Source: an uncultured Gammaproteobacteria bacterium
GTDB lineage: Bacteria > Pseudomonadota > Gammaproteobacteria > SZUA-229
Length of the DNA stretch: 43,019 nucleotides
Reading direction: 5' to 3'
Assembly: GCA_913065105.1 (NCBI GenBank)
Contig: CAJXZZ010000017.1
Span: 1 to 43,019 of the forward strand
Positions 26,351 through 29,667 of the stretch are shown here, piece by piece; the stretch's first letter is position 1, and every line of letters starts with the position of its first letter. The position numbers and the translations under genes are program-made. The notes beneath the pieces were generated by a model. That model was not told where the DNA came from and did not search any database. It worked only from the letters and a program-made list of their open reading frames with translations.

Positions 26351-26953
26351 CTAATAGTGACGATTGTTTCTTTGATATTGGCGTAACTGAGAGATAAAGT
26401 GACGACGGTAGTAGAGTACGGCGCTTGAGCCATTGGCTTTGACATCAATTATTTTCCAGCTATCACCACTAAGGCGCATGCGGAAATCTAGGCGAACAGG
26501 GGGAACGTCCGGACGGAAAATTCTGGCACTGACAAAGGATTCGGCAGGGCCGCGATAACGTGCTGGGTAGAATTTGACACGGGTGTTTTTTGCATCAAAA
26601 CTCCCCAGGTGCTTTGACAGGCTGGATAAAAACGTTTCTCGCAAATTCCGCTGGAAGTCAGATTTGTCTTTATCACTCATATTGCTAGCATAACGGCCAG
26701 TGATCCAGTGCGACATATTATCGAAGTCAAAATGAGGGATTATTTCGTTTTCGATGAAACCACGAAGTCGAGCGGCATTTACTTTGTCAGAATTGCTGCT
26801 GAATGTAGTAATTTTATCTAGTGCTGTGTGGATGACATAAGCCGGGTCGGTAGGCGTGATTGGCGGAGATGTAGAGGCAAACGACTGTGATGAAACAAGT
26901 AATAATGAGGTGAAAGTAAGAATGCATTGAGCTTGTTTAATAAATGATCGCAT
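26351..26953 (-). CDS. MlaC/Ttg2D-family phospholipid-binding protein
   Basis: This periplasmic protein of 200 residues has a Sec signal peptide (about 1-27, cut near S-F-A-S). The body fits the MlaC (toluene tolerance Ttg2D) family: P-H-F-D-F-D-N-M-S-H-W near residue 73, and V-D-F/L-D-F-R-M-R with a W-K-I-I-D-V segment near 160-175. MlaC carries phospholipids between outer- and inner-membrane Mla complexes. No mlaA, B, D, E or F gene is nearby, so this is an orphan copy and may have a related but different partner. Confidence 0.88.
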   Translation of the reverse strand: MRSFIKQAQCILTFTSLLLVSSQSFASTSPPITPTDPAYVIHTALDKITTFSSNSDKVNAARLRGFIENEIIPHFDFDNMSHWITGRYASNMSDKDKSDFQRNLRETFLSSLSKHLGSFDAKNTRVKFYPARYRGPAESFVSARIFRPDVPPVRLDFRMRLSGDSWKIIDVKANGSSAVLYYRRHFISQLRQYQRNNRHY

Positions 26954-27131: not shown

Positions 27132-27653
27132 CTAGTAAAAATTATAGCGGGGGATGTGCTTTATTTTTACCTGACCGGTTTTGCCAAATACTGTGACTCG
27201 AGTAATGATCGGTGAGTCTCCACGGCAGTGTTCTTCGAAAGGAGTGCGTTCTCTGATATTGACACCAGCAAAGTTGACGGTGAATGCTGATGATATGGTT
27301 GCACCGCAGCTACCATCTAAATTCTGACTAAATACCTGAGGTTCGAGCGTGATGGTGTATTCGCCAGAACTAAGCATGCATGTTTTGGTGATTTTTTTTG
27401 TTTTTACGATACGGGTGTGTTCTGTTCTGCGGTCAATTTCAACCAAATTCCACGGAGAATAGGTGCCGTCTTCATCTGAATAGTGGAAAGTGGGACCTTC
27501 ATCACTTTTCAGTAAGGAATTAGTCAGTGTAATCATGTCGGATTCGATATTACATTTGTACGTGACCAGTGGGTATATTGCTTCAGCTGCAGTTACATCG
27601 GCCACATGTGCAGTGGTTAAAAATGAAAGTATCAGTATTCTTAGTTTGCTCAT
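27132..27653 (-). CDS. Hypothetical secreted protein downstream of the motor pair
   Basis: With the ATG at 27653 (GAG about ten bases upstream) this is a 173-residue protein with a signal peptide, likely cut in V-T-A-A-E. An ATG two codons earlier and a longer frame to 27746 are also open, but only the inner starts place the signal peptide at the N-terminus. The mature part has four cysteines (Y-K-C-N, K-T-C-M, G-S-C-G, E-H-C-R) that could make two disulfides. I recognise no family. It lies about 150 bases downstream of the ExbD-like gene on the same strand. Confidence 0.7.
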   Translation of the reverse strand: MSKLRILILSFLTTAHVADVTAAEAIYPLVTYKCNIESDMITLTNSLLKSDEGPTFHYSDEDGTYSPWNLVEIDRRTEHTRIVKTKKITKTCMLSSGEYTITLEPQVFSQNLDGSCGATISSAFTVNFAGVNIRERTPFEEHCRGDSPIITRVTVFGKTGQVKIKHIPRYNFY

Positions 27654-27807
27654 AACCATACTCACAAGCCAGGTGAATATTTGGGACTTGTTATATTTTT
27701 TTGTTGTGTTTACTAGATAGTATAGTGAAAAGGTGGCTATTTGCATGACTTCTGGGCTATCAGGAATAAGCTTATGTGCAATACGTTTTGAGATGTATTT
27801 TTATTGC

Positions 27808-28692
27808 CTATTCTCGATAATAATAATCATATTTTTGCAGTAAACCTTTCATGAATGTCCAGGCTTCGCTATAGGTAAGCCCACTTTCTTTCGGAATAAC
27901 TATCTTAATATAAAGTTTATTCGGGTGTTTCTTTTTAAGCCTGGCGAGTTCGCTGTGCAGCTGTTTTTCGGTAACAACGGTGTAATTTTCCTGGCCTGAG
28001 TCTTTGAAGCGAATACGTTCTTTGCCTTTGATGCGCTCAAAGTTAACACTGACAACATATTTTCCTTTGGCAGTTCGAGCAGGCTTTATTAACTTATCGT
28101 ACTTGACTTTTAATGAGCCGAAATCATCTTCTAAATTGGTCAATTTACGTGACTGGCTGTCACGTTCCTGGGAGATGATGATGATTTTCTGACGTTCTTC
28201 TTCTAGTGCATTTTGTTTTTGCTCAACATCGATACTTAGTTGCGACAGATTTTCATTCATTGCTGAAATCTGTGAACTTAAGTTGGCTATCATGTTTTCA
28301 TTTTTACTAACGGAGTTTTTTAATTGTTCATTGTCTGATAATACAATAACGATCTGTTTGTCTTTGTCATCCAGCTCAACATTCAGCTGATTTGACTGTT
28401 CACTGGCCTGTAATAATTGCATACGTAACATTGAGATCTCATTTTGTGCATGCGCTAGCTGTTCTTCCAGCGTGGCATTTTCCTGTGAGGTGTCATTGAT
28501 TATTTTAACCGCCTGTTCTTCAGCGGCCATGCTATTTCTGAGCTGGTCGAGTAACTCCCAGTTTTTTACCATGAGTAACATAGAGGTGAGCAGGAAGATG
28601 ATGACGACCACCATCATGATGTCGGTAAACGAGGGCCAGAAACTCTCGCTACTTAAATGGCCCTGGCGCAGATCAACAAATTCTTCGTTCAC
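27808..28692 (-). CDS. TolR/ExbD/MotB-like protein with long coiled coil
   Basis: This 294-residue protein has one membrane helix (about 21-42) that contains an acidic residue, D24, in S-F-T-D-I-M-M. The position fits the proton-carrying Asp of MotB, ExbD and TolR. Residues about 48-205 are a long coiled coil rich in E, Q, N and heptad leucines. The last 85 residues (V-T-E-K-Q-L-H-S-E-L-A-R-L-K-K-K-H-P-N-K-L-Y) resemble the periplasmic domain of ExbD/TolR. There is no OmpA-type peptidoglycan domain. It starts 33 bases after the MotA/ExbB-like gene. Together they should form a proton-driven motor with an unusual extended stator shaft. The role is unknown. Confidence 0.8.
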   Translation of the reverse strand: MNEEFVDLRQGHLSSESFWPSFTDIMMVVVIIFLLTSMLLMVKNWELLDQLRNSMAAEEQAVKIINDTSQENATLEEQLAHAQNEISMLRMQLLQASEQSNQLNVELDDKDKQIVIVLSDNEQLKNSVSKNENMIANLSSQISAMNENLSQLSIDVEQKQNALEEERQKIIIISQERDSQSRKLTNLEDDFGSLKVKYDKLIKPARTAKGKYVVSVNFERIKGKERIRFKDSGQENYTVVTEKQLHSELARLKKKHPNKLYIKIVIPKESGLTYSEAWTFMKGLLQKYDYYYRE

Positions 28693-28725
28693 GTGATAAC
28701 TCCTGATTAACCGATAGTTACAAGT

Positions 28726-29667
28726 TTAGGAGTCTGACGACGATGATGAACTGGATGACAGCCGGAAACCGTCGCGTAAAAGTGATTTTATTTCTTCGAT
28801 ATCTGTGCTCAGGGTTGTCAATCGATTGGCATAGGTTCCAGTTAACGCATTGAGATTACGCCCGGCTTCAGCAAAATCTATTTGCGTATTTGCCATTACG
28901 CTGGCCGCTTCATGTAAGGCCTTAACCAGATTACCAACTTCATGCAACATGCTGTCAGTCTGGTAAGTAAAGCGAGGCATGATGTAAAGCGTGGTTGCCT
29001 GTTCAATGCCGCTTAAAAGTTTTGTTTGCACATCAGTTAGTTTCATATAGAAATAACCAAAAAACAAATAACAGACAATGGCGGTGGCGGTGGTGGAAAG
29101 TGCGGTCGACATACCGTGAATAACGATGCTCATGCCGCTTATGCCATCGGCGCTATCGATAATGTCGGAAGCGCCCATCAGTGCAATCGATAAAGAAATG
29201 ATGGTGCCGAAAACACCAGTAAGAATTAATATGTTACTGATAAAACGTGGCAGACTTAAACGCGTACTTTCTGTTGCCACTAGTACAGATGCCAGGGCGC
29301 TATGGTTGACGGCAACATTGTGTTTGCTGATTTCCAGTACCGAGATATAACGGTTATAAATCAAACTTTTTTTACTTATACGTTCTGTTGGCAGTGTTAC
29401 TTCATCCTGCACATTTTGTATGAAACGAGCTAATGCATTTTCTTCTCTGCTGTAACGTAATAACAACATGATAAGACGAAGCAGGCCAATGAGAAACAGG
29501 GCAAGAATGCTGCCATTAACGATGAAACCGGTATTGGTTTCCTGTTTTTTGAGATAGAGATTGATTATGAACTCATGGTTGATCAGTAATAAAAAAGCGA
29601 CCAGTACCGATAACATCAAAAACTGGAATAAAACGCTACGACTGTAATTTGTTTTGTACTGAACCAT
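28726..29667 (-). CDS. MotA/TolQ/ExbB-like proton channel protein
   Basis: This 313-residue inner-membrane protein has four helices at about 10-33, 46-67, 136-160 and 180-205. The pair 3-4 carries G-V-F-G-T-I-I-S-L near 147 and the T-A-L-S-T-T-A-T-A-I stretch near 188, which match the channel-forming signatures of ExbB, TolQ and MotA. A cytoplasmic domain lies between helices 2 and 3. A short helical tail follows helix 4 and the protein ends in a run of eight serines. Its partner is the next gene. No TonB, Tol-Pal or flagellar gene is near, so it is neither a typical ExbB nor a typical MotA. Confidence 0.85.
   Translation of the reverse strand: MVQYKTNYSRSVLFQFLMLSVLVAFLLLINHEFIINLYLKKQETNTGFIVNGSILALFLIGLLRLIMLLLRYSREENALARFIQNVQDEVTLPTERISKKSLIYNRYISVLEISKHNVAVNHSALASVLVATESTRLSLPRFISNILILTGVFGTIISLSIALMGASDIIDSADGISGMSIVIHGMSTALSTTATAIVCYLFFGYFYMKLTDVQTKLLSGIEQATTLYIMPRFTYQTDSMLHEVGNLVKALHEAASVMANTQIDFAEAGRNLNALTGTYANRLTTLSTDIEEIKSLLRDGFRLSSSSSSSSDS

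Follow-up and report, generated by a model that had tools for sequence, protein, structure and literature searches.

ExbBD, TolQR, MotAB and ZorAB are 5:2 proton-driven motors, and a central question in the biology of Gram-negative cells is how proton energy from the inner membrane is delivered to the outer membrane. Two adjacent genes, here called A and B, in a 43,019-nucleotide stretch of DNA from an uncultured gammaproteobacterium (the window) raise this question for a new case: do they encode one of the described motors, or another kind that carries its own shaft across the periplasm? More systems driven by 5:2 motors are still to be discovered, according to a recent survey (PMC12204202). 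The A-B pair appears to be an undescribed relative of the known 5:2-type motors, and the length of its shaft appears roughly equal to the distance between the two membranes. The pair and the parts of B are located in the window as follows:

28726..29667, minus strand: gene A, 313 aa, MotA/TolQ/ExbB-type channel subunit (Pfam PF01618)
27808..28692, minus strand: gene B, 294 aa, axle-shaft-head subunit (from the open reading frame and a structural model)
28567..28629, minus strand: axle helix, B residues 22-42, transmembrane; the codon of Asp24, putatively proton-binding, is at 28621-28623
28087..28566, minus strand: shaft, B residues 43-202, continuous coiled coil, a single helix in the model
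27817..28062, minus strand: head, B residues 211-292, ExbD/TolR-like, with an invariant YDYY near the C-terminus

The gene pair and its distribution

Both open reading frames lie on the minus strand. They are 33 bases apart, just as the initial annotation had described for a channel protein and its partner. B starts with GTG, from which Asp24 is numbered. The score of A against the Pfam MotA_ExbB model (PF01618) was just over the curated cut-off, and 34 of 41 A members matched that model at E 0.01. Four membrane helices and a short cytoplasmic C-terminal helix are predicted. The TM3 threonine (T155, in the sequence GVFGT, a GxxGT motif) and the TM4 threonine (T193) align with the ring threonines of the genome's own TolQ; T155, T192, T193 and G300-F301-R302 are invariant across 41 diverse members. 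The MotA/ExbB-like channel that had been proposed is thus borne out both by the family match and by the ring threonines.

Compared in an alignment with the genome's five other channel subunits, A carries one more helix at the N-terminus, and its C-terminal helix is longer. The cytoplasmic tail of A, about 100 residues, is mostly fixed in length, with a heptad rule less clean than that of the B coil; the TM4 Thr and the C-terminal GFR are separated by 107 residues in 60 of 84 members, and by 171 at most. At the very C-terminus (window positions 28729-28770), a nearly invariant GFR(L/P) precedes a tail that varies and is sometimes rich in serine. The single-chain model of A was unreliable (pLDDT 54), and comparison of the A profile with solved structures returned unrelated coiled coils and nothing else. 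Since the same genome also encodes a TolQ-TolR-TolA-like cluster and several ExbBD-like clusters of its own, the A-B pair adds to these motors and does not replace them.

Across an evenly drawn sample of the class, A was present in 55 of 369 gammaproteobacterial genomes, one copy in each, distributed over 26 coded families. A sample of the phylum added two families from outside the class that carry the pair, and 21 relatives came from named environmental assemblies, including Thiotrichaceae and Thiotrichales bins. At each of the 34 loci inspected, B comes directly after A, and the stop codon of A often overlaps the start codon of B. Conservation of this arrangement across many families excludes chance, and A-B is a real, widespread, single-copy family. 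The single copy and the conservation in many environmental lineages suggest an important, unnamed task in the envelope. One outlying genus departs from the arrangement: two of its genomes have a headless B (L153, L160/L173) and two have A with no adjacent B (L154, L155/L170), which may reflect decay or a head protein encoded elsewhere.

The survey of gene neighbours that the initial annotation had proposed gave the same conserved A-B pairing, with flanks that vary by lineage. These flanking genes are chromosomal housekeeping genes; RmuC, MlaC and MFP/RND were found in different lineages, and others were read by eye as ThiC, HemH, GroEL, HisB/HisH and RadC. Because the neighbours change with lineage, the core unit is two genes, and a fixed third gene was rejected. 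In two loci of one family (L113, 5638-6957; L114, 7495-8790), the gene immediately upstream of A, with the same strand, is of the RmuC family; the call comes from a Pfam match for L113, and the L114 gene looks alike. Searches of viral contigs and of phage and plasmid collections returned no matches, and a viral, phage or plasmid origin was rejected.

Axle, shaft and head of B

W19-P20-S21 and D24 of B are invariant in 41 diverse members. The model of B (pLDDT 79.7) consists of one helix over residues 22-202, followed by strand-strand-strand-helix-strand-helix at residues 212-288. The axle aligns with that of ExbD/TolR (E 1.4e-4). The initial annotation had read B as a single helix bearing Asp24, about 150 residues of coiled coil and a C-terminal domain resembling ExbD/TolR. 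The first element agrees with the invariant D24 and the one axle helix of the model; the long coil is present as well, but is nearer 160 than 150 residues. As for the last element, the predicted head does fold like TolR/ExbD (Z 8.4).

When the head was compared with solved structures by VIA-align, TolR took ranks 1 and 2 and ExbD ranks 4-6 (Z 8.4 to 6.5, 2.2-2.9 A). The best match was TolR 2jwk (2.2 A over 72 of 74 TolR residues), whose Z of 8.4 is only just above the level that the aligner calls common; TolR 5by4 (Z 7.8) and ExbD 8p9r (Z 6.9) were among the further matches. Foldseek alone gave no match to the head model at E 0.001. In the profile check that had been suggested for this domain, Pfam ExbD stayed below its cut-off for B in the window (E 7.3) and gave weak matches in 5 of 41 heads (best E 0.0015), so that the resemblance held for the fold and for those weak matches and did not hold for profile scores over the cut-off. 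The head profile had no sequence relation to the genome's own ExbD/TolR proteins (E 0.37), and a search of solved structures with it gave nothing significant. An OmpA-type domain had likewise been read as missing; none matched B in the window at E 10 and none was among the families listed for the 41 heads. As modelled, the head is TolR/ExbD-like by fold, which is not proof of descent.

Shaft length was expressed as the spacing between the axle Asp and the point where the head starts, anchored on motifs, in 89 B proteins. The spacing equals 187+7n in 80 of them (180, 187, 194, 201, 208, 215, 222, 250, 257, 264, 306, 495 and 579), and seven further proteins are off register by one four-residue stutter. 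None of the 89 has a spacing shorter than 180 residues. Most spacings (81 of 89) fall within 180-226, corresponding to straight shafts of ~23-30 nm; in a few lineages the spacing is 287-579 and the coil about 40-80 nm. On a tree of A, which was a quick build with some long branches so that counts of changes are approximate, the spacing changed at least 36 times versus 7 changes of the remainder modulo 7; a smaller A tree gave 25 spacing changes and 3 register changes. At least 29 of the 36 changes were therefore whole-heptad (binomial P ~1e-18 for a one-in-seven chance). There was no proline among the 16,539 residues of the coil regions. Between residues 53 and 213 the phase of hydrophobicity for a period of 3.5 residues stayed constant, within about -105 to -127 degrees.

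Any uninterrupted coiled coil should show indels of heptad size. Since the coil changes length by whole heptads, a single register would run from axle to head, as in a stiff rod; the heptad-quantised length, the lack of proline and the constant phase together argue for a continuous rigid rod as judged from sequence. At that level, what the heptad indels establish is that no flexible joint lies between axle and head, and this is a statement about rigidity, not rotation. With a helix rise of 0.15 nm per residue, the 160 coil residues beyond the membrane would measure ~24 nm if straight. In E. coli, the distance between the inner and outer membranes has been measured or modelled as 30-32 nm and that between outer membrane and peptidoglycan as ~8 nm (PMC8824477). 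By these distances, a 24 nm shaft would place the head past the wall and near the outer membrane, if the periplasm is E. coli-like. The very long coils do not fit straight spanning unless the periplasm is wide or the coil folds.

Some relatives have unusual coils. In the near relative L019 (6001-8315), a 25-residue unit, which reads as present in four copies, enlarges the B coil, and the A tail has expanded alongside it (repeated segment, 370 aa). In L106 (8159-10012) and L107 (8135-10240), B is 617 and 701 aa long, with coils that would measure ~70-83 nm if straight and that keep exactly the heptad register of the short ones.

Comparison with described motors

ExbBD and TolQR share with A-B the channel family, the axle Asp and a small alpha/beta fold of the periplasmic head, where the fold match is accompanied by no sequence relation in profile comparison. 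They differ in having a three-helix channel subunit, whereas A has four helices, and a short flexible linker in place of the rigid coil of ~160 residues in B; they also work with TonB or TolA. MotAB, like A-B, combines a four-helix channel subunit with a B-type axle, but its OmpA head is missing from B and A-B does not lie within a flagellar gene cluster. The nearest functional parallel is GldM, an inner subunit that, like B, has a long periplasmic shaft. The GldM shaft is 18 nm long and is thought to transmit force to the outer membrane (PMC9389320). It is built of four folded domains, in contrast to the one continuous helix modelled for B, and GldLM serves gliding and type 9 secretion in Bacteroidetes. 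In TPH-vWA transducers the axle protein itself bears a periplasmic effector domain, as B does; that domain is, however, a von Willebrand A head, usually paired, and a coiled-coil shaft is not described (PMC12204202).

The closest sequence matches were to Zorya. ZorB models matched the axle of 37 of 41 B members (best E ~1e-9) and A matched ZorA weakly. ZorAB of types I and II also resembles A-B in its adjacent channel and axle genes and in its catalytic Asp, which is D24 of ZorB in type I and D21 in type II. The ZorB and ZorA matches favour a stand-alone Zorya-like defence motor, in which B would sense phage damage to the envelope and A would open to signal in the cytoplasm. Yet the ZorB match covers the first 60-110 residues of B and never the peptidoglycan-binding domain, a Pal/OmpA-like domain that the B head lacks and that is required for Zorya function (PMC11890865). 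Whereas the cytoplasmic tail of ZorA is very long (deletion of aa237-696 of ZorA I takes out ~460 residues of it; PMC11890865), that of A has ~100. Zorya also comes with partner genes and a defence function, but ZorC/ZorD/ZorE-like neighbours of A-B were recognised neither by cluster nor by eye, the family scan having covered a sample; lineage-specific housekeeping genes were found there instead. Given also that carriers in the class sample have one copy each and that searches of plasmids, phages and viral contigs gave no match, we regard a defence motor of this kind as very improbable. Zorya membership was rejected because B resembles ZorB no further than the axle and A has a short tail.

A and B did not both match ZorAB with confidence, and the separate motor class with a long periplasmic shaft that the initial annotation had envisaged gains from the end of ZorB similarity after the axle, from the heptad-quantised rod and from the want of a curated name. 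No curated NCBIfam model names A or B. PRK09039 ('peptidoglycan-binding protein') matches B residues 16-170 at E 8.6e-5, far below its cut-off; the match comprises the axle and coil and ends at position 175 of the 350-position model. An action on incoming DNA, also suggested at the outset, is disfavoured, as no Zorya partners were recognised beside the pair, the plasmid and phage collections gave no match, and the neighbours are of a lineage-specific housekeeping kind. Non-flagellar motors are highly diverse in published surveys (PMC12505986). We came across no account of a shaft built as a coiled coil and ending in a TolR/ExbD-like head in the open-access literature searched, which does not prove its absence.

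Proposed mechanism and alternatives

We favour, with moderate confidence, a reading in which A and B form a proton-driven rotary motor of the inner membrane that transmits force through the periplasm by a stiff shaft. A ring of A would enclose the axle helices of a B dimer, in the manner of MotAB, ExbBD and ZorAB, and we infer that the stoichiometry is 5:2. Protons would pass Asp24 of B and the threonine ring of A (T155, T193), driving rotation of A and B against each other. The axle would run unbroken into a parallel coiled coil of ~24 nm ending in the TolR/ExbD-like head, and this rod of one register could either pass on force or set the angle and distance of the head. With shafts of the common lengths, the head would be placed past the peptidoglycan and close to the inner face of the outer membrane, where it may push, pull or turn a partner in the outer membrane or wall, as proposed for GldM. 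Axle, shaft and head are combined in one protein, and the length rule is testable: whole-heptad changes should be tolerated and register changes should not. Such a test would tell a shaft that passes on rotation from one that merely spans.

The coil might instead be a ruler or tether, with the head bound to the wall or outer membrane and the channel opening only at the right spacing. The floor in coil length (spacing 180) and its narrow common range would suit this, and the heads of MotB and ZorB do anchor, gating by pulling (PMC11890865). But very long coils exist, the heptad register suggests that angle may matter besides length, and the head has no OmpA-type wall-binding domain; we consider a ruler rather unlikely. 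The remaining alternative, a motor for lipid transport or outer-membrane lipid homeostasis with a divergent MlaC-like shuttle, is raised by the genes beyond the end of B in the window:

27132..27746, minus strand: secreted protein gene between B and the MlaC-like gene, no Pfam match
26351..26953, minus strand: divergent MlaC-like periplasmic lipid-binding protein gene (PF05494, E 8.4e-25), possible partner

The MlaC-like gene lies ~0.9 kb past the end of B and 1.8 kb beyond that of A; one small gene, kept in near relatives only (cluster c5, 8 loci), stands between it and B. Genes of this MlaC-like subfamily also occur immediately upstream of A in two other coded families, in three genomes of the first and one of the second, and for adjacency in three of 13 families the chance P is ~1e-5 to 1e-4. 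The subfamily was also found in 24 of 55 pair-bearing versus 16 of 314 other class genomes, a comparison biased by a profile built from pair-bearing genomes and by kinship among the genomes, which are not independent. Against this, about half of the pair-bearing families are without the subfamily, and two outlying families mostly have a single MlaC, canonical and high-scoring, located away from the pair. A lipid motor is accordingly an unlikely account of the pair, and an MlaC partner for the whole family was rejected, since the outlying families do not have the divergent subfamily beside the pair. For some lineages only, the MlaC-like gene is a lead, not proof. It enters a broader proposal, which we likewise hold to be improbable: a widespread, undescribed trans-envelope motor that reaches an outer-membrane target by its own shaft, with no TonB or TolA, and has a dedicated MlaC-like carrier in some lineages. 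If that were true, the flow of protons would power the movement of lipids or the remodelling of the envelope. The MlaC-like subfamily itself is distinct from canonical MlaC in score, is often a second genomic copy and does not lie in a recognised mla operon.
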